From Trueperaceae bacterium (lineage in GTDB: Bacteria > Deinococcota > Deinococci > Deinococcales > Trueperaceae), in contig SLRS01000027.1 in the NCBI GenBank assembly GCA_007130855.1, positions 1 through 42,750 on the forward strand: a stretch of DNA of 42,750 nucleotides. The letters run 5' to 3'. The notes below the pieces were generated by a model. That model saw nothing but the letters and a program-made list of their open reading frames with translations, was not told the DNA's origin and did no database searches. Each line of letters begins with the position of its first letter. The first letter of the stretch is position 1. The position numbers were made by a program, and so were the translations under genes. Positions 10,054-42,734 of this stretch are shown in pieces.

Positions 10054-11001
10054 TCACAGCGCCCCCGCGGGCGGGATGCCGTCCCTGAATGGGTCGCCCT
10101 CCTGCCGCACCAACCACGCCTCGGCGGTGACCCAGGCACGGCCGGTGACGACCGGCGCGATCCGACCACCGGGGAGCGGCCGGTAGTGCGCCTCGAAGCG
10201 CGAACCGATCACGCTCTCCTGCAGCCACGGACGACCCGGCTGCAGCGCGCCGTCGTCGGCGAGGCAGGCGAGCTTCGCGCTCGTGCCGGTGCCGCAAGGC
10301 GAGCGGTCGTAGGCACCGCCGGGGCAGAGCACGAAGGCGCGGCCGTCGGCCGTGGGGCTGTCGGCCAGGAGTTCGACGTGGTCGATCTCGTCGCCGTCGT
10401 CCCCGGTGATCCCGGCGGCGGCGAGGCCGCGACGCACCCGCCACGCGAACGCCGTGAGCTCGGGGATCGCTGCGGCCGTGACCCGCAGGCCGTGGTCGCG
10501 GGTCAGGAAGAACCAGTTGCCGCCCCAGGCGACGTCGCCCGTGACCCGGCCGCCGCCGGGCAGGTCGACCGCGACGCCGGCGCGGGCCCGGTAGGCAGGT
10601 ACGTTGTGCACGCTGACGCGGCCGTCTTCGTGGAGCTCTGCCACGACCTCGCCCACCGGAGTCTCGATGCGGTGCCGGCCGGCGCCGAGGCGACCGCGCC
10701 ACGCCAGGCTGGCCACGAGGCCGATGGTGCCGTGGCCACACATGCCCAGGTAGCCGACGTCGTTGAAGAAGATCACCCCGGCGGCGGCCGCCGGGTCGAC
10801 CGGCTCGCATAGGAGCGCGCCCACCAGGACGTCCGAACCGCGCGGCTCGCGGACGACCGCGGTGCGCAGGTCGTCGTGGTCGCGACGCAGGCGGGCGAGG
10901 CGCTCGGCCAGCGGACCGCGACCGAGGTCGGGACCGCCGGCGACCACCAGGCGCGTGGGCTCGCCTTCGGTGTGCGAGTCGATGACGTGGACGCGTGACA
11001 T
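10054..11001 (-). CDS. 4-hydroxyproline 2-epimerase
   Basis: A 315-residue member of the proline racemase family. Both catalytic cysteines are present: C88 in GMCGHGTIG and C236 in [10 protein letters not shown]. As I recall, these are the same positions as in the Pseudomonas aeruginosa hydroxyproline epimerase. Two cysteines indicate a racemase/epimerase, not a 3-hydroxyproline dehydratase, which has Thr at the second position. It interconverts trans-4-hydroxy-L-proline and cis-4-hydroxy-D-proline. The gene sits between hypD and the flavoprotein. A TAAGCT -10 box in the 39-nt gap after hypD could give it its own leaderless transcript. Confidence 0.92.
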
Positions 11002-11008
11002 CGGCGTC

Positions 11009-11014
11009 AGCTTA
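11009..11014 (-). promoter_or_regulatory. internal -10 box before the epimerase gene
   Basis: TAAGCT on the minus strand, then 7 nt, then the epimerase ATG. It lies in the short gap after the hypD stop. No clear -35 is seen, so it is tentative. Confidence 0.4.
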
Positions 11015-11040
11015 CGGTGGCGCCCTCCCGGGCGCCAGCG

Positions 11041-13401
11041 TCACCAACCGCCCTGCGCATTCCGAGAGATGATCTCGTCTTGCAAGTCGCGGCCCAGATC
11101 GACGAAGTAGTCGCTGTACCCCGCCACTCGCACGAGCAGGTCGCGGTAGTCGTCGGGGTGCAGCTGAGCGTCGCGCAGCATCGCGTCGTCGACCACGTTG
11201 AACTGGATGTGGTGACCGTCCAGCCGGAAGTAACCGCGGATCAGGTGCAGCAGCTGCTCCAGGCCCGTGTCGCCCGCCAGCACCTGCGGCAGGAAGCGTT
11301 GGTTGAGCAGCGTCCCACCGGTGCGCAGCTGGTCCATCTTGCCCAGTGAGCGACACACGGCCGTGGGACCGTGGCGGTCGGCACCGTGCGAGGGCGAGGT
11401 GCCGTCGGAGATCGGCAGGCCGGCGCGGCGGCCGTCCGCCGAGGCGCCGAGCTTGCTGCCGAAGTAGACGTGGCACGTCGTCGACAGCATGTTGAGGTGG
11501 TAGCGGCCACCGCGCGTGTTGGAGCGGCCATCGATGCGCTCGAAGAGGGACGCGAAGGCGCGCCGCATGAGGTCGTCCGCCGTGTCGTCGTCGTTCCCGA
11601 AGCGTGGCGTGCGGTTGGCCAGCCGCGCTCGCAGCGGCTCCCGCCCCGCGAAGTCGGCGTCGAGGGCGGCGACGAGTTCCGGCAAGGTGAGCGTGTCGGC
11701 GTCGTAGACGTGCGTGCGGATCGCCGAGAGGGCATCCGTGGTGGTGCCGATGCCGCAGCACTGGATGTAGGTCGTGTTGTAGCGCGGGCCACCGTCGTAG
11801 TAGTCGCGACCGTTGTCGATGCAGTCGGCGATGACGGTCGACAGGAAGGGCGCCGGCATGCGCTGCGCGAACAGCCGTTCGATGCGCTGGTTGACCGCCA
11901 CCTTGGTGTCGATGGCGTGGTCGAGTTGCGCCTCGAAGGCGCGGTACAGGTCGTCGAAGGTGGCGAAGCCTGCCGGATCGCCGCTGCGCGGGCCGACGAC
12001 CGCGCCGGTCCGCGGATCGACGCCGTCGTGCAGGGCGAGTTCGAGCAGCTTCGGCACGTTCACGTAGCCGGTCAGGAGGTAGGCCTCCTTACCGAAGCAG
12101 CCGGTCTCGATGCAGCCGCTGGTCCCGCCCTCGCGGGCGTCTTCGAGGGTCTTGCCGGAGCGCAGCTGCTCCGCGACCACGGCGTCCGCGTTGAACACCG
12201 AGGGGTAGCCGTACCCCTTGCGGATGACCTCGCAGGCCTTGCGGAGGAAGCGGTCGGGCGTCCGGTGGCTGATCTGGACGTTGCTGCCGGGCTGCAACAA
12301 GTGCATTTCGTCGATCACCTCGAGCAGCAGGTACGACACCTCGCTGGTGCCGTCGCTCCCGTCGTGCCGCAGGCCGCCGAGGTTGACGTTGGTGAAGTCG
12401 TTGTAGGTGCCGCTCTCCTCGGCGGTCACGCCCACCTTGGGCGGCGCCGGATGGTTGTTGAACTTGATCCACAGGCACTGCAGCAGCTCCTTGGCGGCCT
12501 CGCGATCGAGTGTTCCGTCGCGCACGCCAGCCTCGTAGAAAGGCTGCAGGTGCTGGTCGAGGTGCCCGGGGTTCATCGCGTCCCAGCCATTGAGCTCGGT
12601 GATCGTGCCGAGGTGCGTGAACCAGTACGTCTGGACGGCCTCCCAGAAGTCGCGCGGCGCGTGCGCCGGCACGAAGCGGCACGCGCGCCCGATGCGTTCG
12701 AGTTCGGTCCGGCGACGTGGGTCGGCGGTGGTGCGCGCCTGGCGCTCGGCCTCCTCCGCGTGGCGTTCGGCGAAGCGGATCGCCGCTGCGCAGGCCAGGT
12801 CCATCGCCGCGAGCTGGTCGTCCTTGGCCTGTGCCGCCGGGTCGCGTAGGAAGTCGAGGGCGGCGCGAGCCGCGGCGATACGCGAGCGCCGGTCGGCGAG
12901 CCCCTCGCGGTAGATGCTGCCGTCGAGGGTGGTGTGGCCGGGCGCGCGCTGCTCCATGAACTCGGTGAACACCCCGGCGTCGTAGGCGCGCTGCCAGGCG
13001 AGCGGTACCAGCGCGAAGATCGCGTCGCGCGTGGTGCGGCCGGTCCAGTAGGGGATGACCTCGCTGCGGTAGGCGTCGATGACATCGGGGTCGACACGGT
13101 AGCGGGTCTTCGCGCGGCGGGCCAGGATCTCGAGGTCCTCCACGCTGTGGCAGGTGAGCTCGGGGAACGTCGGCACCACCTTCGGCGCGGGACCGCGCTC
13201 GCCGACGATGAGCTCGCCTTCGCCCAGGTAGATCGTCTGGTGCTCGCACAACTCCCGGTACACCAGGGCGCGCAGGACCGGCACCGGGTGCTTGCCGTGC
13301 TGTTGGCGGTAGACGCGGGTCACGTGCAGCGCCCGTTCCGCCGATACGGCCGGCTCGGCCTCGAAGCTCCGTTGCCGCAAGCGCGCGATCCGCTCGGTCA
13401 T
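11041..13401 (-). CDS. hypD: glycyl radical enzyme, trans-4-hydroxy-L-proline dehydratase
   Basis: A 786-residue glycyl radical enzyme of full length. The thiyl cysteine and its partner are C430 and E432 in GGTSGCIETGCFG; the radical glycine is G761 in RVAGYSDYF. Residues I recall as substrate contacts in Clostridioides difficile HypD are all present at a constant offset of four: F148, H156, D274, S330, D335 and Y446. HypD removes water from trans-4-hydroxy-L-proline to give pyrroline-5-carboxylate, later reduced to proline. The gene follows its activase by 4 nt. The enzyme is inactivated by O2, so it would work only under low oxygen. Related enzymes acting on D-epimers exist, but the matching contacts favour the L substrate. 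Confidence 0.93.
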   Translation of the reverse strand: MTERIARLRQRSFEAEPAVSAERALHVTRVYRQQHGKHPVPVLRALVYRELCEHQTIYLGEGELIVGERGPAPKVVPTFPELTCHSVEDLEILARRAKTRYRVDPDVIDAYRSEVIPYWTGRTTRDAIFALVPLAWQRAYDAGVFTEFMEQRAPGHTTLDGSIYREGLADRRSRIAAARAALDFLRDPAAQAKDDQLAAMDLACAAAIRFAERHAEEAERQARTTADPRRRTELERIGRACRFVPAHAPRDFWEAVQTYWFTHLGTITELNGWDAMNPGHLDQHLQPFYEAGVRDGTLDREAAKELLQCLWIKFNNHPAPPKVGVTAEESGTYNDFTNVNLGGLRHDGSDGTSEVSYLLLEVIDEMHLLQPGSNVQISHRTPDRFLRKACEVIRKGYGYPSVFNADAVVAEQLRSGKTLEDAREGGTSGCIETGCFGKEAYLLTGYVNVPKLLELALHDGVDPRTGAVVGPRSGDPAGFATFDDLYRAFEAQLDHAIDTKVAVNQRIERLFAQRMPAPFLSTVIADCIDNGRDYYDGGPRYNTTYIQCCGIGTTTDALSAIRTHVYDADTLTLPELVAALDADFAGREPLRARLANRTPRFGNDDDTADDLMRRAFASLFERIDGRSNTRGGRYHLNMLSTTCHVYFGSKLGASADGRRAGLPISDGTSPSHGADRHGPTAVCRSLGKMDQLRTGGTLLNQRFLPQVLAGDTGLEQLLHLIRGYFRLDGHHIQFNVVDDAMLRDAQLHPDDYRDLLVRVAGYSDYFVDLGRDLQDEIISRNAQGGW

Positions 13402-21630: not shown

Positions 21631-21659
21631 TTGCAATCGTCGATAGGTGTGTATACACT
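21631..21659 (+). promoter_or_regulatory. marR promoter with palindromic operator (copy 1)
   Basis: TTGCAA (21631-21636), 17 bp, TACACT (21654-21659), then 8 nt and the GTG start at 21668. The palindrome GTGTATACAC (21649-21658) overlaps the -10, so a bound repressor would block polymerase. The same elements, spacing and palindrome stand before the second marR gene at 37493-37521. Confidence 0.7.
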
Positions 21660-21667
21660 CTTCAACT

Positions 21668-22093
21668 GTGTCGGAGCCCGTACCCCTCAGCGCGACCAAG
21701 GCCTGCCCCTGCCTCGCTGCTCGCCGGCACGCGCGAGCGCTGACGCGCCACTTCGACGCCTACTTGCGTCCGTGTGGTCTGCGCTCGACGCAGTTCTCGG
21801 TGCTGGCGGCATTGGCCCAGACCGGTCCCACGGGCCGCGGCCGGCTCGCCGAGGTGCTCGGCCTCGAGCGCACTACCCTCACCCGCAGCGCAGCCACCCT
21901 CGAGCGGCAGGGCTGGCTCGCGACGCTGGAGACCGCCGACGGGCGCGAACGCCCTCTCGAACTGACTTCGGCCGGCCGCCGCGCCCTCGACGCCGCGTTG
22001 CCGGCCTGGAAGGCGGCGCTGGACCGATGCGACCCGGGGCTGGACCGGCTCCCACGACCGACGCGCAGGAGAGGAGACACCCCGCATGCGTGA
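21668..22093 (+). CDS. MarR-family regulator, copy 1
   Basis: A 141-residue MarR protein. It has 'FDAYLRPCGLRSTQFSVLAA' before the helix-turn-helix, 'RGRLAEVLGLERTTLTRSAA' as the recognition region and 'GRERPLELTSAGRRAL' as the wing. A CPC motif lies near the N-terminus (KACPCLAARR) and is kept in the paralogue at 37071-37484; by eye the two share about four in five residues over the first 118. It is followed by a DUF899 remnant, the same partner as the paralogue. The GTG start is set by the promoter, 8 nt after the -10. The CPC pair could sense oxidants; this is inference. Confidence 0.85.
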   Translation: MSEPVPLSATKACPCLAARRHARALTRHFDAYLRPCGLRSTQFSVLAALAQTGPTGRGRLAEVLGLERTTLTRSAATLERQGWLATLETADGRERPLELTSAGRRALDAALPAWKAALDRCDPGLDRLPRPTRRRGDTPHA

Positions 22094-35347: not shown

Positions 35348-35758
35348 ATGTCGAGCGAGGCATTGCGTCGGGAGATCGTGCGGGTGCTGCGCGCAGCGAT
35401 CCCCGGCCTGCAGCTCGTACTCCTGTTCGGTTCGCACGCGCGCGGCGACACGACGCCGGCGAGCGACGTCGACGTGGCCTTCCTCGCCTCCGAGTCGCCG
35501 GCTCCCTCGCTCGTGCTCGCGGCTCGGCAGCAGCTCGAGCGGGCGACCGGTTCCGACGTCCATCTGATCGACCTGCGCACCGCGAGCACGGTGTTCCGGC
35601 ACGAGATCGTGCAGTGGGGCGAGGTGCTGCTGAGCGTTGGTGGTGCCGAGGTCGAGGCGTTCCTCGACTTCGCGCTGCGCGACTACGTCCGCTTGAACGA
35701 GGAGCAAGCCGGCATCCTCCAGGACATCCGAGAGCGGGGCCGCGTCCATGGTCGTTGA
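35348..35758 (+). CDS. mntA: MNT-type nucleotidyltransferase antitoxin
   Basis: A 136-residue minimal nucleotidyltransferase with the core G28-S29-x10-D40-x-D42 (GSHARGDTTPASDVD). In type VII toxin-antitoxin systems MntA-like proteins AMP-modify the HEPN toxin on a tyrosine near its active site. The next gene is such a toxin and overlaps it by 11 nt, so the pairing is secure. The C-terminal helix 'FALRDYVRLNEEQAGILQDI' is also typical. Confidence 0.87.
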   Translation: MSSEALRREIVRVLRAAIPGLQLVLLFGSHARGDTTPASDVDVAFLASESPAPSLVLAARQQLERATGSDVHLIDLRTASTVFRHEIVQWGEVLLSVGGAEVEAFLDFALRDYVRLNEEQAGILQDIRERGRVHGR

Positions 35759-36161
35759 CGTGGTGATGAACAAGGCGGCCACCATCGAGCGCTGCTTGGC
35801 GCGCGTGCGCGAGGAGTTCGGCGCAGACGGCGCCGAGCTGGGTGTCGATCAGCGCCGTCAGGACGCGCTCGTGCTGAATCTGTTGCGGGCGTGCGAGACC
35901 GCCATCGACCTTGCGATGCAGGCGGTGCGTGTGCGCGGGCTCGGGGCTCCCCAGAGTAGCCGTGATGCGTTCGCGAAGCTCGTCGAGGCCGGCCTCCTCG
36001 GGCGCGGGGTCGGCGACGACCTACAGCGCATGGTGGGGTTCCGCGACATCGCCGTCCATCGCTACCAGGACCTGGATCTCGACGTGCTGCGTGCGATCGT
36101 GCGCCAGGAGCTGGGCGGCTACGGCGCGTTCATCACCGCGATGCTGCGGGCAAGCGACTGA
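35748..36161 (+). CDS. hepT: HEPN-domain toxin HepT
   Basis: A 137-residue HEPN protein. The RNase motif R-x4-H-x-Y is R99-H104-Y106 (RDIAVHRY); Y106 is the tyrosine expected to be adenylylated by the antitoxin. All catalytic residues are intact, so the system could be active. ATG 35748 lies inside mntA; GTG 35760 and ATG 35766 are alternatives. Confidence 0.87.
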   Translation: MVVDVVMNKAATIERCLARVREEFGADGAELGVDQRRQDALVLNLLRACETAIDLAMQAVRVRGLGAPQSSRDAFAKLVEAGLLGRGVGDDLQRMVGFRDIAVHRYQDLDLDVLRAIVRQELGGYGAFITAMLRASD

Positions 36162-36251: not shown

Positions 36252-37058
36252 TCACAGAGCGGGATACTCGTCGGGATACGGCATCGTCGGGCTCCCCGCC
36301 TGGAGGGCGAGTCCCGTCGTCCGGCCCTCGGGCTCCTCCCACGGCTCTTGGCGCCCGAGGGCGGTGAGGTCGAGGAGGTCGTTGGAGGTGCCGACTTCGG
36401 CGCCCCGCGCGTAGGTCGAGTACGTGTGGAACACGCGTTCGCCCACGCGCAGGAAGGCGCTGAGGCCGGGGAGCTCGATCGGCTGCTCGCCCTCGACGTA
36501 GTACGCCGTGCCGGCCCGCTCGTGCTCATCACGCGTGCGGTAGTTGTACTGCAGTGGGGCGACGCGTTCGTCGAGGGTGACGTGGAAGTCGTAGTTGAAG
36601 GGTCCCGAGCCCGAGGAGTACCACGGCATGCGCCAACCCATCCGTGCTCGGAAGGCCGCGAGCTTCGGGTACGGCGCTCGCGACACCAGCACGAAGGTCG
36701 TTGAGCGAGCTCGCAGGTGGTTGAGGTGGCCGCGCGCGATCTCGTCGACCGCTGCTGAGCAACTTCGGCAGGGCAGGTCCCAGTCCGGACCGTACATCAC
36801 GTGCTGGACGATCAGTTGGACGCGGTCTTCGAACAGGTCGAGCAAGCTGGCCTCGCCGTTCGGACCGTCGAAGCGGTAGTCGGTCGTCATCTCCACCATC
36901 GGCAGGCGTCGCCGCTGCGCGTTGAGCGCGTCGCGCTCGCGCGTGAGCGCCTTCTCGCGCTCGAGCAGGTCGGAGCGCGCCTGAAGCCAGGTCGTGCGCG
37001 GGACGATCTCGGGCAGGTTCAGGCCCTCGAGGCCGCCGTTCGTATGGTCATCGGTCAT
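36252..37058 (-). CDS. DUF899 thioredoxin-like protein
   Basis: A 268-residue DUF899 protein. The thioredoxin-like domain has the CxxC site 'DLPCRSCSAAVDEIARGHLN' and the strand 'TTFVLVSRAPYPKLAAFRAR', then 'RMGWRMPWYSSG' as in the family. Such proteins are predicted redox enzymes without known substrate. ATG 37058 is chosen because AAGGGG overlaps the marR stop 8 nt upstream; GTG 37067 is possible. The gene is co-transcribed with and coupled to the marR gene. A decayed copy lies at 22127-22300. Confidence 0.85.
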   Translation of the reverse strand: MTDDHTNGGLEGLNLPEIVPRTTWLQARSDLLEREKALTRERDALNAQRRRLPMVEMTTDYRFDGPNGEASLLDLFEDRVQLIVQHVMYGPDWDLPCRSCSAAVDEIARGHLNHLRARSTTFVLVSRAPYPKLAAFRARMGWRMPWYSSGSGPFNYDFHVTLDERVAPLQYNYRTRDEHERAGTAYYVEGEQPIELPGLSAFLRVGERVFHTYSTYARGAEVGTSNDLLDLTALGRQEPWEEPEGRTTGLALQAGSPTMPYPDEYPAL

Positions 37059-37070
37059 GCCGCTCACCCC

Positions 37071-37484
37071 TTACCGCTGTGGCATGGCGTGCGCCGCGGG
37101 ATCGCCGCGGGCTTCGTGGTCGAGCCGATCGAGCGCCTCCTTCCAGGCCGGCAGGGCCGCGTTCAGCGCGCAGCGCCCGGCCTCGGTCAACGCGAGCGGG
37201 CGCTCGCGTCCGTCGTCCGCCTCCAGTGTCTCGATCCACCCCTGCCGCTCGAGCGTAGCGGCGCTGCGGGTCAACGTCGTCCGGTCGAGGCCGAGCCCGT
37301 TGGCGAGTCGTCCCCGGCCGGTCGGGCCGCGCTGCGCCAGGGCGGCGAGCACGGAGAACTGCGTGGAGCGCAGTCCACGAGGCCGCAGGTAGGCGTCGAA
37401 GTGCCGTGTGATGGCGCGGGCACGCCGTCGGGCAGCCAGGCAGGGGCAGGCTCTGGTCATGGTGAGGTCGACTGGCGGACACAC
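37071..37484 (-). CDS. MarR-family regulator, copy 2
   Basis: A 137-residue MarR protein closely matching copy 1 at 21668-22093, including the N-terminal CPC motif (RACPCLAARR), 'LRPRGLRSTQFSVLAALAQ' and 'LGLDRTTLTRSAATLERQGW'. The GTG 37484 start is fixed by the promoter: TACACT ends 8 nt upstream, the same as in copy 1. It probably represses its own operon with the DUF899 gene through the palindrome over the -10. The CPC pair beside a CxxC thioredoxin-like partner suggests an oxidant or electrophile signal; this is inference. Confidence 0.86.
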   Translation of the reverse strand: MCPPVDLTMTRACPCLAARRRARAITRHFDAYLRPRGLRSTQFSVLAALAQRGPTGRGRLANGLGLDRTTLTRSAATLERQGWIETLEADDGRERPLALTEAGRCALNAALPAWKEALDRLDHEARGDPAAHAMPQR

Positions 37485-37492
37485 GATGGGTA

Positions 37493-37521
37493 AGTGTATA
37501 CACACGTATCGTCGGGTGCAA
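37493..37521 (-). promoter_or_regulatory. marR promoter with palindromic operator (copy 2)
   Basis: On the minus strand: TTGCAC (37521-37516), 17 bp, TACACT (37498-37493), 8 nt, GTG 37484. The palindrome GTGTATACAC (37494-37503) overlaps the -10. The elements and distances equal those of copy 1. Confidence 0.7.
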
Positions 37522-37731
37522 GCGGCCGCGGCCGCGGCCGCGCTGGTGCTGAGCGTCGGCTGCAGCCGCGCCACGGTTTCGACGGCGTGTCGAGCCGGTT
37601 CTCCTACCAGCGACCCCGCCCTTCGGCGGGTGTCGGATGATGTCGCTTGCCGTCACCGTTGGGGGGACGGGCTTTGCGGGGAGCGCTGGCGAAGCGCGCG
37701 AGCCCTGGCAGGCCCGCGGAGAGGAGGAGCC
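37522..37731. other. divergent intergenic stretch with GC-rich repeat
   Basis: It begins with a perfect (GGCCGC)n-like run at about 37522-37541 and contains a small hairpin CCCGCC-CTTC-GGCGGG (37615-37630). No -10 for the ABC operon is clear; GAGAGGAGGAG precedes the first ABC gene. Confidence 0.4.
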
Positions 37732-38952
37732 ATGTGCCGAGCAGTGCTGGTGCTCGCTTGGAGGAACCTGTTGCGGCAGCGGCGACGCAGCATGCTCTTG
37801 GTGATCGTGGTCGGCTTCGCCACGGCCGGCACGGTGTTCTTCTGGGGCTTCGTCGACGGGTTCGAGCACTCGGTGATGGCCGGCCACGCCCGCTTCATCG
37901 GCGCGCCCGTCCTGGTGATGACGGTCGGTCAGCGCGCCGATCCCGACGTGGAGCACGCGCTCTCCGACCTGAGTTTGGTGGCGCAACTCGAGCGGCACCC
38001 GGCCGTGGCGGCGGCGGTGCCCAGGCTCGAGTTCACCGGGCTCGGCCGTAGCGCGTACGCCAGCGCACCGTTGGCGCTGCGCGGTGTCGACCCGGAATGG
38101 GAGCACCTGGTGAGCGACGTCCCGCAGCACGTTCGCGAGGGACGCATGCTGCACGCCCCCGGCGAGGCGGTCCTCGGCGTGGACCTGGCGGAGCGCCTCG
38201 ACGTGCGCATCGGGGAGCGCCTTGCGCTCGACACGTCGGGGATCGCGGGCCCGCGGGCCGCCGGCCTGACCGTGGTTGGGCTGATCGACTCCGGCATGGC
38301 GTTCGTCGACCGAGGGGCCGTGCTGGTCCACCTCGACCAGGCGCGTGCGCTCACCGGTGTGAAGACGGCGACCGCGGTCGCGCTCGACGTCGCCCGCGGC
38401 CGGGAGGAAGTCGTCGCCGCCGAGTTGAACGCCCGCCTGCCGGCGGACGTGCGGGCCTTCGGCGTGCGCGAACTCCTCGGCCCGGTACGCGAGCACTTCA
38501 CGGCCCACAGCAACCGCATGCTCGTGATCGGCGGCATGTTCGCCGTCTTCGCGGCCATGGCGGTGACCAGCACGGTGCTGGTGTCGGTGATCGAGCGCAC
38601 GCGGGAGTTCGGGGTGATCGCCGCGCTCGGCCTGGCGCCGGGGCCCCTGAGCGCCATGGCGGTGGCCGAGGCCGTTCTCGGCACGGTCCTCGGCTATGGG
38701 GTAGGGCTCGTCGCCGGCTACGCCGTGCTGTGGTGGCTGAGTAGCGTCAACGTGCTCGGGCCGCTGCTCTTCGCCTCCTTCGATGCGGCCTTCGCCTCGC
38801 TCGGTCTCTCGGGCGACTTCTACATGGCCGTCCAGCCGGCGTACGTCGGCTACGCCACGGCCACCATCGTCGTCGCCGCCGTCTTCGCCATCCTCGTCCC
38901 GGCGCGGAGGCTCTGGCGACTCGAGCCGGCCAGCGCCATGCGCGTCGGATGA
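37732..38952 (+). CDS. ABC transporter permease, FtsX/LolC-MacB type
   Basis: A 406-residue permease with one N-terminal membrane helix (about 21-43), a large extracytoplasmic domain, and three C-terminal helices. The FtsX block is visible as 'NRMLVIGGMFAVFAAMAVTS' and 'VIERTREFGVIAALGLAPG'. LolC/E-type permeases extract lipoproteins or export lipids from the inner membrane. GAGGAGG precedes the ATG. It is the first gene of a five-gene operon and pairs with the second permease at 39717. Confidence 0.88.
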   Translation: MCRAVLVLAWRNLLRQRRRSMLLVIVVGFATAGTVFFWGFVDGFEHSVMAGHARFIGAPVLVMTVGQRADPDVEHALSDLSLVAQLERHPAVAAAVPRLEFTGLGRSAYASAPLALRGVDPEWEHLVSDVPQHVREGRMLHAPGEAVLGVDLAERLDVRIGERLALDTSGIAGPRAAGLTVVGLIDSGMAFVDRGAVLVHLDQARALTGVKTATAVALDVARGREEVVAAELNARLPADVRAFGVRELLGPVREHFTAHSNRMLVIGGMFAVFAAMAVTSTVLVSVIERTREFGVIAALGLAPGPLSAMAVAEAVLGTVLGYGVGLVAGYAVLWWLSSVNVLGPLLFASFDAAFASLGLSGDFYMAVQPAYVGYATATIVVAAVFAILVPARRLWRLEPASAMRVG

Positions 38953-38981
38953 CACCGCGCGCAGCGAGTGACGGAGGGATC

Positions 38982-39716
38982 ATGCGACACGTCCTGGTCA
39001 GCCTCACGCTGGTACTGCTCGCGGGTACCACGCTTGCTCAGGTCGACGCCGCTGAGGTCCTGGCCAGGGCCATGGGGCACCTCCGCGGCGGCGAGCTCGT
39101 CGCCACGATCGAGCTCCACGTCACGCGGCCCGACCGCGTGACCCGCTACCTGCTGGAGCTCGTCACCGACGGCGACACCGCCGGGCTCGGGCGCGTGCTC
39201 ACGCCCCCTCGCGACGCCGGCCAGGCGTTCTTGCGCGGTGGCGACAACCTCTTCGTGTACCACCCACGCGTCGGGCGCGCCCTGCGCCTGCCGCCCAGCG
39301 GACGCAGCGACAACTTCCTCGGCTCGGACATCACCTACGGCGACTTCGCCGGACGGGACCTGGAGCGCGACTACCAGAGCCGCGTGCTGCGCGAGGACGG
39401 CACGACCGTGGTCCTGGAGCTGCTCGCCCGGCCCGACGCGCCCACGCCCTTCGGCCGCGTGCTGCTCACGCTCGCTGCCGACACCTTGACTCCGCTCGAG
39501 CAGGTCTTCGAGGACCAGCGCGGCGCGGCGGTGCGCAGGATCGAGTTCGGTGACCACGTCGAGTCGAACGGCCGGCGCTTCCCGACCACGCTCGTCGTGG
39601 AGGACCTGACGCGAGCGGGCCACGAGACCGTCGTCCGCTACGTTCGCTTCTCGTTCGACAGCACGGTCCCAGCGAGCTGCTTCGAGCAGCGCGCGCTCGA
39701 AGTGGGGTGCATGTGA
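38982..39716 (+). CDS. LolA-like outer-membrane lipoprotein-sorting protein
   Basis: A 244-residue protein with a signal peptide (hydrophobic residues about 4-17, cleavage near TLAQ). The mature part follows the 'outer membrane lipoprotein-sorting protein' family: 'QAFLRGGDNLFVYHPRVGRA', 'LPPSGRSDNFLGSDITYGDF' and 'DYQSRVLREDGTTVVLELLA', with 'LTPLEQVFEDQRGAAVRRIE'. The LolA/LolB fold carries a lipid or lipoprotein across the periplasm. Lying between two permease genes, it probably receives cargo from them. CGGAGGG precedes the ATG; its stop abuts the next start. Confidence 0.85.
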   Translation: MRHVLVSLTLVLLAGTTLAQVDAAEVLARAMGHLRGGELVATIELHVTRPDRVTRYLLELVTDGDTAGLGRVLTPPRDAGQAFLRGGDNLFVYHPRVGRALRLPPSGRSDNFLGSDITYGDFAGRDLERDYQSRVLREDGTTVVLELLARPDAPTPFGRVLLTLAADTLTPLEQVFEDQRGAAVRRIEFGDHVESNGRRFPTTLVVEDLTRAGHETVVRYVRFSFDSTVPASCFEQRALEVGCM

Positions 39717-40940
39717 ATGATCACGCTGGCCTGGCGCAACCTGTGGCGCCAACGCGGGCGCGGACTCGCCACGCTCTTCGCGACCGCTGCCGTCGTGGCG
39801 CTGATCCTCGTCAACCTCGGCGTCAAGGGCGGGCTGATGAACGCCTCCTTCCAGGACGTCACCCGACTGGGCGGTCACCTGCAAGTCCTCGTCCCCGACC
39901 AGCTGGCGCTGCAGGGCTTCGAGGCCGGACTCCTCCACGACCTCGGCGGCATCACCAGCGCGGTCGTCGACGTCGACGCCTCCGCTGTCGCGGTGCCGGT
40001 CCTCGACGTGCCGGCGCTCGCTGCCGGCGAGGCCCGCTCACGGGGTATCCGCGTCACGGGCGTGAGCCACCCGCCGCCGTTGGGGACGACTTTCGCCGCA
40101 AACTACCTCGCTGACGGGCGCCTACCCGAGGCCGGCGACGTGGAGGGCATCGCGCTCGGCGCGGCCCTCGCGCGATCGCTGCAGGTCGACGTGGGTGACG
40201 GCGTGATCCTGTACGCGCCCGGCACCGCAGGAATCGGCGCGGCCGCGTATGCGGTGATCGGTCTGCTCGAGCTCGGCGACCCCTTCCTCGAGGGTCGCAC
40301 GGCCTACCTCTCGCTGGAGGCCGCGCAGGAGCTCGCCGCGCCGGGTCGCGCCACCCGGGTCGAGGTGTACCTCCCCGGCCTTGTGCGTCTCGCGGACGAC
40401 CACCGGGCCGACGCCATGCGCGGCGCCTTGCAGGCGCGTCTCGGGGACGCGCGGGTCGAGACGTGGCGGGAGGTCGAGCCCTCGAAGGCAGGGCTCATCA
40501 CCGCCCTCGACCAGATGCTCTACGCGATCGCCGGGCTCTTCTTCGTCCTGGCGGGGCTCATGGTCGTCAACACCTGCTACCTGAGCCTGATCGAACGCAT
40601 CCGGGAGTTCGGCACCATCATCTCGCTCGGGGCCACGCCGGGCACGGTCATGCGGATGATCCTCAGCGAGAGCCTGCTGCTCTGTACGGGCGGCGCACTG
40701 GTCGGCGCGGTCGTGGGGCTCGCGGCGGTCGGCGTGATGGCGCGCGGCGTGCGGTTCCCGGAGGCCTTGGGCGCCCTCGACACCTTCGGCCTGCCGCAGA
40801 CGTTCTACGCCAGCCTCTCCACCGCCGAAGGCCTGCTCACCGTGCTCCTCACCATCGCGATCGGCGTCCTCGCGTCGCTGTGGCCGGCCCTGCTCGCGGC
40901 CCGCCTCGCGCCGGTCGAGGCCATGCGCTTCGCTCCCTGA
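39717..40940 (+). CDS. ABC transporter permease, FtsX/LolE-MacB type
   Basis: A 407-residue second permease of the same topology. The N-terminal helix starts at 'TLFATAAVVALILVNLGVKG' and the FtsX domain includes 'LYAIAGLFFVLAGLMVVNTC' and 'LIERIREFGTIISLGATPG'. It starts one base after the LolA-like stop. With the first permease it should form a heterodimer served by one ATPase. Confidence 0.88.
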   Translation: MITLAWRNLWRQRGRGLATLFATAAVVALILVNLGVKGGLMNASFQDVTRLGGHLQVLVPDQLALQGFEAGLLHDLGGITSAVVDVDASAVAVPVLDVPALAAGEARSRGIRVTGVSHPPPLGTTFAANYLADGRLPEAGDVEGIALGAALARSLQVDVGDGVILYAPGTAGIGAAAYAVIGLLELGDPFLEGRTAYLSLEAAQELAAPGRATRVEVYLPGLVRLADDHRADAMRGALQARLGDARVETWREVEPSKAGLITALDQMLYAIAGLFFVLAGLMVVNTCYLSLIERIREFGTIISLGATPGTVMRMILSESLLLCTGGALVGAVVGLAAVGVMARGVRFPEALGALDTFGLPQTFYASLSTAEGLLTVLLTIAIGVLASLWPALLAARLAPVEAMRFAP

Positions 40941-41016
40941 CGCGTTGACCCTGGCCGCGAGCAGGGGCCCGAAGGACGCCAAGCCGAGCTCTGATCTCAG
41001 TGGAAGGGGAGATCCG

Positions 41017-41760
41017 ATGACCAGCATCGCGTTCACACCGCAGCCGATCCTCGACCTCAGCCGAGCAACCCACACCCGAGCCGTCGTGCGCACCCACGCC
41101 TTGCGCAAGACCTACCGCGTCGGCAGCGTCGAAGCGCGTGCGCTGCGCGGCGTCGACCTGACGATCCATCCTGGTGAGTTCACCGCCATCGCCGGGCCGT
41201 CGGGCAGCGGCAAGAGCACCCTGCTGCACCTCATCGGCGGCCTCGATCGACCGACCGGCGGAGAGGTCTGGTTCGAGGAGCGGCGCATCGACACGCTCTC
41301 GAGGACCCAGCTCGCCGAGCTGCGGCTGCACCGCATCGGCTTCGTGTTCCAGGCCTACAACCTCATCCCCGTCCTGAGCGCGCTGGAGAACGCCGCCTTC
41401 GTGCTCGAGCTGCGCGGCGTCGCTCGCCGGGAGCGGGAGGAGCGGGCACGGCGCGCGCTCCACGAGCTCGGGCTCGATGGCTTCGAGCGGCGGCGTCCCA
41501 ACCAACTCTCCGGCGGTCAGCAGCAGCGCGTCGCGGTGGTCCGGGCGCTGGCCGCCGAGCCGAGCATCATCCTGGCCGACGAGCCGACGGCGAACCTCGA
41601 CGGCAAGGCCGGGATCGCCCTCATCGAGGTCATGCGGCGGCTGAACGAGGAGCACGGCACCACCTTCGTCTTCAGCACGCACGACCCCAGGCTGCTCGAG
41701 CGCGTCACCCGCACCGTCATGCTGGAGGACGGTCGGGTCGTCGACGACGACGGGGCATGA
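41017..41760 (+). CDS. ABC transporter ATPase, LolD/MacB type
   Basis: A 247-residue ATPase with Walker A GPSGSGKST (60-68), signature LSGGQ (164-168), Walker B ILADEP (185-190) and H-loop H222. It matches the LolD/MacB/FtsE group that powers FtsX-type permeases. The N-terminus has about 27 extra residues before the first strand. ATG 41017 follows GGAAGGGGA. Its stop overlaps the next start by 4 nt. Confidence 0.92.
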   Translation: MTSIAFTPQPILDLSRATHTRAVVRTHALRKTYRVGSVEARALRGVDLTIHPGEFTAIAGPSGSGKSTLLHLIGGLDRPTGGEVWFEERRIDTLSRTQLAELRLHRIGFVFQAYNLIPVLSALENAAFVLELRGVARREREERARRALHELGLDGFERRRPNQLSGGQQQRVAVVRALAAEPSIILADEPTANLDGKAGIALIEVMRRLNEEHGTTFVFSTHDPRLLERVTRTVMLEDGRVVDDDGA

Positions 41761-42734
41761 GGCGGATCGTCGGCCTCTGCTTGCTGCTGGCGTCGTCCGC
41801 CGGCGCGCAGACGCTGCGGGGCGAGCTCGCCCTGACCGCGCACCTCCATGGTGCCGCTGCCCCGCCGGAGGCGAGCTGGTCGCTCGCCGGCCGACTCGAT
41901 GCCAGGTACCCCGCTGCCCCGTTCGAGCTCGCACTCGTCGCCGAGCCGACGCTGCGCTTCGGACCCCGACCGCGCCTCGAGCTGCGCGTCTCGGATGCCC
42001 TGGTGCGGTACCGCTGGAGAGACCTGGAGGTGAGCGCGGGCCTCGAGCGGCTGCCCCTGGAGACTGCCCGCTTGAGCCTGCCGTACGCGGTCGGAGCGCC
42101 ACCCTCAGGCGGCGTCCGGTCCGGCGTACCGGGACTGCGCCTGCGCTGGTTCAGTGAGCGGACTGAAACGCGGCTCGCCGCCTTCTACGCCGACGGCGGG
42201 CCAGCGGGGGCCGTCAGCCTCCGCCGCGAGCTCGAGCGCGCCGAGCTCGAGGGGCATCTCGTGGTGAGCGGCGACAGGGCGGCGCTGGGGATGAGCGGCA
42301 GCGGCCTGCTCGGCGCCACGGTCCTCTATGGCGAGGTGTGGCTGCTCACGGGCCCGCTCGAGCCCCGCGCCGCGCTGGGGGCGACGGGCGCGTTCGGCGG
42401 GGTGCATTGGACGCTCGAGGCGGCGTACCTGGTCCCGCCGGGCGGGCAGTGCGCCCGCCCGACCGTCGCGGCGGTGCTGGCCGGCCGGGCCGCCGAGCAC
42501 GTCGACTGGCGGGTGGTCGGCGGCGCGTCCCTCGGTGCAGCGTCGCCTGCCGCGTCCCCCGGCGGGACGTCTCCTGGCAGCGCCGCGCCCGACCGGCAGG
42601 TGCTGACCGGCCAGGCAGCCGCCGCCGTCACCTACCTCCAGCAGGACCGTGACGTGCGCATCGAGCTGAGCGCTTTGCTCGGACCGTTCGGCCGCCGGCT
42701 CGGCATCGGCGTCGAGACCCGGGCGTACCTGTAG
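41757..42734 (+). CDS. probable outer-membrane beta-barrel protein
   Basis: A 325-residue protein with a signal peptide (cleavage near AGAQT, residue 18). The mature part is a chain of short amphipathic beta strands ('LRGELALTAHLHG', 'LELRVSDALVRYRWRDLEVS', 'VRIELSALLGPFG') and ends in an aromatic/leucine-type C-terminus (ETRAYL), as in outer-membrane barrels. It is coupled to the ATPase by an ATGA overlap and would be the outer-membrane end of the transport system. I recognise no family. Confidence 0.7.
   Translation: MRRIVGLCLLLASSAGAQTLRGELALTAHLHGAAAPPEASWSLAGRLDARYPAAPFELALVAEPTLRFGPRPRLELRVSDALVRYRWRDLEVSAGLERLPLETARLSLPYAVGAPPSGGVRSGVPGLRLRWFSERTETRLAAFYADGGPAGAVSLRRELERAELEGHLVVSGDRAALGMSGSGLLGATVLYGEVWLLTGPLEPRAALGATGAFGGVHWTLEAAYLVPPGGQCARPTVAAVLAGRAAEHVDWRVVGGASLGAASPAASPGGTSPGSAAPDRQVLTGQAAAAVTYLQQDRDVRIELSALLGPFGRRLGIGVETRAYL

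Follow-up and report, generated by a model that had tools for sequence, protein, structure and literature searches.

Contig SLRS01000027.1 of the Trueperaceae bacterium assembly GCA_007130855.1 was analysed over its full 42,750 bp (the window, which is the whole of contig C283 in a 3.55-Mb metagenome-assembled genome (MAG) of 287 contigs). Five plus-strand genes at 37732-42734 encode, in order, permease 1, a LolA-like carrier, permease 2, an ATP-binding cassette (ABC) ATPase and a predicted outer-membrane barrel. We consider it probable that this operon encodes a dedicated ABC-driven trans-envelope exporter, in which an apolar substrate passes to the LolA-fold carrier and from there to the porin-like barrel, with both substrate and direction as we infer them. 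This reading is supported by the components and their folds, by the conservation of the five-gene order across genera and by the co-occurrence of permease 1, carrier and barrel. It is further supported by the pairing of the same carrier family and a barrel with a resistance-nodulation-division (RND) pump and with another ABC order, by the precedent of AmeABCD (PMC6394551), by the presence of a MarR gene as first gene in relatives, and by the very weak LolB binding of LolA3, which is among the nearest folds to the carrier (PMC13103446).

In the proposed mechanism, the ATPase and the two FtsX/MacB-type permeases would assemble into a type VII ABC engine that, judging from its family, may take the substrate from the outer leaflet of the inner membrane or from the periplasm by mechanotransmission. 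The substrate would be apolar: a lipid, a pigment-like isoprenoid or a toxic hydrophobe, for example. The soluble carrier would then receive it and, as its fold suggests, protect it across the periplasm in a shielded groove before docking on the 18-stranded barrel, which may release it into the outer membrane or through to the far side. A first-pass annotation of this DNA had suggested a specific lipid or lipoprotein as cargo. A lipid or similar molecule is still reasonable, whereas a lipoprotein is the weaker option because LolB and canonical LolA are absent, the carrier belongs to the LolA3/PF17131 type and a LolCE-like permease separate from the operon occurs throughout the genomes.

Engine, carrier and barrel

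The successive gene junctions consist of a 4-bp overlap, a join with no gap, a spacer of 76 bp (4 bp if an upstream TTG is the start) and another 4-bp overlap, and a good Shine-Dalgarno sequence, GGAGAGGAGGAGCC, lies ahead of the permease 1 ATG at 37732. Coordinates and Pfam matches agree with the order and close packing described in the first-pass annotation. Permease 1 (37732..38952) matches the FtsX (48.8 bits) and MacB_PCD (46.4 bits) domains, permease 2 (39717..40940) matches FtsX (56.1 bits), and the LolD/MacB-type ATPase (41017..41760) matches ABC_tran (122 bits). Two such permeases with a separate ATPase identify the engine, at the level of sequence, as a predicted type VII (FtsX/MacB/LolCE) ABC transporter. 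The best NCBIfam names for the engine are LolCE and LolD, all well under their cut-offs. The permeases score ~74 and ~73 bits against the LolCE equivalog TIGR02212 (cut-off 362), and the best match of the ATPase, the LolD model TIGR02211, scores 216 bits (cut-off 307.75).

The carrier gene (38949..39716, plus strand) matches PF17131 with 118 bits against a cut-off of 30; its likely start is Met12 (38982), and its signal peptide, as read in the sequence, has no lipobox. The AlphaFold2 model (predicted local distance difference test (pLDDT) 91.0, predicted template modelling score (pTM) 0.83) has its nearest solved folds in 3BUU, 3BK5, 9TP6 (Porphyromonas gingivalis LolA3) and 4Z48 (Foldseek template modelling score TMq 0.73-0.77; 0.74-0.77 for the first three), as against TMq 0.34-0.46 for canonical LolA structures. 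The Pfam gathering score and the fold match of the model thus place the predicted carrier in the LolA superfamily, where it falls under the LolA3/PF17131 type, apart from canonical LolA. An iron-regulated cluster of P. gingivalis with such an annotation, which may be that of LolA3 itself, includes an MMPL transporter (PMC10434189). Two C-terminal cysteines, at 244 and 254, form a C-x9(11)-C pair, with the cysteines 10-12 residues apart, that is found in 25/25 operon carriers and in none of six distant PF17131 members, and that we infer to be a disulfide.

The last gene (41757-42734, plus strand) was modelled with AlphaFold2 from an alignment of 25 sequences, giving 18 strands at pLDDT 90.9 and pTM 0.83. 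Its best Foldseek matches among solved structures are OprD/Occ porins, followed by AlgE and MOMP (best E 4.5e-10, range ~1e-10 to 1e-8; TMq ~0.63; ~10% identity). With an even number of strands and a signal peptide ending in ...SAGAQ, the modelled product is predicted to be a porin-like outer-membrane barrel. The barrel assignment, on which the first-pass annotation had made its proposal depend, thus withstands the test. Residues 98-123 form a long loop between strands 5 and 6, at the position of porin L3, and are the most conserved of the segments compared. The other outward connections are mostly very short, with the exception of that between strands 15 and 16 (262-280), which is long and variable. 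A C-terminal F is present in 15 of the 25 barrel homologues.

Relevant Pfam matches were found in 0/25 homologues and no PDB sequence match was found among them, so that neither library has an annotation for the family, and its identity with an established Pfam or PDB sequence family could be discarded. A fold search of BFVD with the barrel returned generic porins only. The window barrel has no match to DUF1302 and none to Omp85, being OprD-like with 18 strands instead. The operon also provides a function hypothesis for an outer-membrane barrel family that has no Pfam model. Taken together, Pfam, the structure models and the conserved gene order favour the earlier proposal that one operon encodes an engine in the inner membrane, a carrier of LolA fold and a putative outer-membrane barrel.

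Conservation, co-occurrence and regulation

The order permease 1, carrier, permease 2, ATPase, barrel recurs in other Trueperaceae, Meiothermus, Thermus and Marinithermaceae, and named cultivable species with the operon include Meiothermus rufus and several Thermus. Named matches place the relatives, part of which are MAGs, in Trueperaceae, Thermaceae and neighbouring groups, so that the host belongs to Deinococcota. Across these loci, permease 2 keeps its position between carrier and ATPase, and the ATPase-barrel junction is often a 4-bp overlap. MAGs carrying the labels Bacillota, Clostridia or Armatimonadetes also have the operon. Some of these MAGs are suspected to be Limnochordia, a class whose envelope is diderm (PMC11456536). 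By profile, the barrel directly follows the ATPase in 19 named loci, and five Thermus loci carry a shorter, divergent version recognised by position. Conservation of the order beyond one species, the second point on which the proposal had been made to hang, therefore extends across genera.

Co-occurrence was assessed in 61 Deinococcales genomes. Permease 1 and carrier occur together in 24/24 genomes and never one alone, the permease 1 orthologues (43-56% identity) being found exactly in the genomes positive for the LolA-like carrier. Carrier and barrel occur together in 21 of the 24, with three genomes carrier-only and one barrel-only (Fisher p 3e-12, with kinship ignored). Contig breaks fall at the locus in three of these four cases, G053, G055 and G016 (two of them carrier-only); in the fourth, G058, no barrel could be located. 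Genome G022 (chromosome CP070651) keeps carrier and barrel side by side with no ABC genes next to them (locus L071), which makes the pair a unit of its own. The same genome has three permease-1/permease-2 pairs elsewhere, without an adjacent carrier (L164:5591-8228, L165:6497-9032 and L166:5333-9354), an arrangement that looks as if one carrier and barrel served several engines.

The operon is patchily distributed, being missing from many Trueperaceae, from 6/6 genus-mates and from the Deinococcaceae-like family sampled. This patchiness, together with the separate and universal LolCE-like permease, argues for an accessory role.

Upstream open reading frames (ORFs) tested in relatives are MarR genes in 7/7 cases, and a profile of the operon-type MarR shows that this gene adjoins permease 1 in most Deinococcota loci, often with a 4-bp overlap. 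A MarR gene at the head of the operon in most Deinococcota relatives points to a small hydrophobic ligand as inducer. The Bacillota-labelled operons show no evident conserved regulator on their upstream side. The window does contain a divergent MarR-family gene beside the operon (37071..37574, minus strand; Pfam MarR), with a DUF899 gene directly downstream of it (36252-37067). We rejected this MarR gene as the operon regulator, since it is kept with DUF899 in genus-mates that have no operon and does not match the operon-type profile. Positions 21647-22093 of the window hold a close MarR paralogue (207 bits).

Several observations weigh against an exporter of this kind. The operon-type MarR has no match in the window or in the Bacillota-labelled MAGs, and neither a substrate gene nor a biosynthetic gene nearby is conserved along with the operon. 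The barrel is as similar to uptake porins as to export channels. In two Trueperaceae genomes (G007 and G023), the barrel and the other four genes lie on different contigs, and the co-occurrence given above is not corrected for phylogeny.

Related layouts and known systems

A parallel layout is found in Deinococcota loci L154-L163 (for example L158:3933-8409 and L160:4184-8517), where an RND/MMPL pump, a PF17131 carrier and a ~410-aa barrel form operons. A TetR gene lies beside both of the RND-type loci tested, and of five RND-type barrels tested, three pass the DUF1302 gathering threshold. The RND-type barrel profile aligns with the operon barrel family over the N-terminal 125 columns (hhalign 93%, E 3e-7), which is only suggestive because barrels share repetitive patterns. 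These operons resemble the window operon in lineage and in having the same carrier family followed by a barrel, but differ in their RND engine and in a ~410-aa barrel that passes the DUF1302 cut-off in 3/5.

In a third layout, an ATPase, two larger permeases and a PF17131 carrier are encoded together (L167:3735-10153, L169:6468-10861 and L170:2391-8372). In L167 and L170, the carrier is followed by a signal-peptide protein with weak similarity to DUF1302; the last ORF of L167 extends into a short-chain dehydrogenase domain. The plasmid collection yielded four distant homologue matches only, though three loci there combine ABC genes and PF17131, in Vibrio, Persicobacter and Bdellovibrio. The Vibrio campbellii locus (L172:6923-12170, NZ_CP050465) encodes a PF17131 carrier, two FtsX permeases, an ATPase and then an ORF of 422-446 aa. 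This last ORF has no Pfam match, and the cluster possibly represents the same five-part layout.

The RND-PF17131-DUF1302 operons of Deinococcota match the layout of AmeABCD from Castellaniella defragrans. This system comprises an RND (HAE3) engine, the LolA-superfamily protein AmeB and the DUF1302 barrel AmeA, and its deletion lowers monoterpene tolerance (PMC6394551). Like the window operon, AmeABCD co-encodes an inner-membrane engine, a LolA-superfamily carrier and an outer-membrane barrel, here as a dedicated hydrophobe system; unlike it, AmeABCD has an RND in place of an ABC engine, an additional AmeC and a DUF1302 barrel. The occurrence of carrier-barrel pairs with RND engines as well makes a modular class of hydrophobe exporters, built from an engine, a LolA-like carrier and a barrel, seem likely.

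Borrelia BBJ23-29 also groups a MacB/LolE-like ABC transporter, a LolA-like carrier and a barrel in one cluster, with an inferred function, but its barrel is of the Omp85/BamA type and it has one homodimeric permease and two TPR proteins (PMC13078400). The LolA-LolC/E-LolD cluster of Halanaerobiales likewise joins a carrier, two permeases and an ATPase in a diderm Terrabacterium, but no barrel is reported and it is classed as a Lol system (PMC5007114). Proteobacterial LolABCDE shares with the window operon a type VII ABC transporter and a LolA-fold carrier, and differs in its PF03548 LolA, its LolB acceptor and the lack of a barrel.

Relation to the Lol system and alternative explanations

The first-pass annotation had set the operon apart from the classical Lol system, and this distinction is borne out at the level of LolA, LolB, LolCE and LolD alike. 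Canonical LolA (PF03548) is absent from the host's own genome and from 59/61 genomes searched, and LolB (PF03550) from 61/61, where an E. coli control gives a match. A LolCE-like match is found in 61/61 genomes, in most of them as a separate permease (140-245 bits) distinct from the operon permeases. A housekeeping Lol function was therefore rejected, given the missing LolA and LolB, the universal separate LolCE-like permease and the patchy presence of the operon. One such permease, at L171:1146-2327 (G000:C37), scores 217 bits against TIGR02212, under the cut-off, and has counterparts across the Deinococcales searched. The group in which it occurs has no LolB and hardly any canonical LolA.

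Diderm Terrabacteria, Halanaerobia excepted, are reviewed as being without the Lol pathway, and the origin of LolA as completely unclear (PMC11784454). The set of engine, carrier and barrel described here is found in a phylum belonging to this wider group. A bolder version of the exporter reading, which we put forward as speculative and on balance unlikely, is that the operon is a Terrabacterial, ABC-driven and barrel-ended lipid export machine using a LolA fold, either a separate branch of Lol or a relic from near the Lol origin, in which the barrel replaces LolB. If true, this would bear on the origin of LolA and on the lipid route to the outer membrane in bacteria poor in lipopolysaccharide.

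Likewise unlikely is an accessory Lol system. Here the ABC transporter would extract a single lipoprotein or a small number of them for transport by the LolA-like protein, and the barrel would stand in for LolB as outer-membrane receptor, insertase or channel for surface exposure. The best engine scores, to LolCE and LolD models, and the LolA fold of the carrier are consistent with this, as is the presence of the lipoprotein-triacylating Lnt in 61/61 genomes, by which triacylated lipoproteins may exist. The similar Borrelia cluster has been proposed to serve lipoproteins or another non-polar ligand (PMC13078400), and the Halanaerobiales cluster of LolA, two permeases and LolD is named a Lol system (PMC5007114). 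However, neither equivalog cut-off is reached, canonical LolA and LolB are absent as noted above, and the operon contains no gene for a lipobox protein. In P. gingivalis, moreover, the LolA3-type carrier shows only very weak binding to LolB and is without the LolA/LolB signature residues (PMC13103446), and lolA3 deletion in Flavobacterium affects neither gliding nor amylase secretion (PMC11885536). Diderm Terrabacteria are also said to have no outer-membrane lipoproteins (PMC11784454).

The conserved loop at the L3 constriction position and the nearness of the barrel to OprD/Occ substrate-specific uptake porins would also suit an inward or maintenance direction, with the barrel admitting a hydrophobic compound, the LolA-like protein carrying it inward and the ABC transporter inserting it into the inner membrane. 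Type VII FtsX/MacB ABC systems are, however, known as exporters or mechanotransmitters, no catabolic genes for an imported substrate are conserved alongside, and the AmeABCD phenotype is one of tolerance (PMC6394551); we regard this direction as improbable. Least probable of all is a MacB-like mechanotransmission efflux or stress pump with the carrier and barrel as loosely associated accessories, since the MacB_PCD domain of permease 1 and the MarR-type regulation in relatives are outweighed by the absence of a tolC gene from the operon and of a MacA membrane-fusion adaptor from its five genes, so that it does not qualify as MacAB-TolC, and by a carrier and permease 1 that are never found apart.

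The partnership with LptA/LptC-like genes at the window start that had also been envisaged is not supported. An LptA-like gene is found in 39/41 relatives irrespective of the operon and lies ~36 kb away from it, and the link was abandoned on the grounds of this operon-independent presence.

The contig ends 16 bp past the barrel gene. Contamination or misbinning could be dismissed, as genus-mates match its DNA at ~76-89% identity up to the DUF899 and MarR genes. The operon is the sole part missing from genus-mates in the compared region, and the neighbouring DNA is native. Elsewhere in the window, nucleotidyltransferase (MNT-like) and HepT-like genes at 35348-36161 form a typical toxin-antitoxin pair. 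At 10054-13401, a pyruvate-formate-lyase-like glycyl radical enzyme gene adjoins a proline racemase family gene, perhaps as part of a hydroxyproline pathway.

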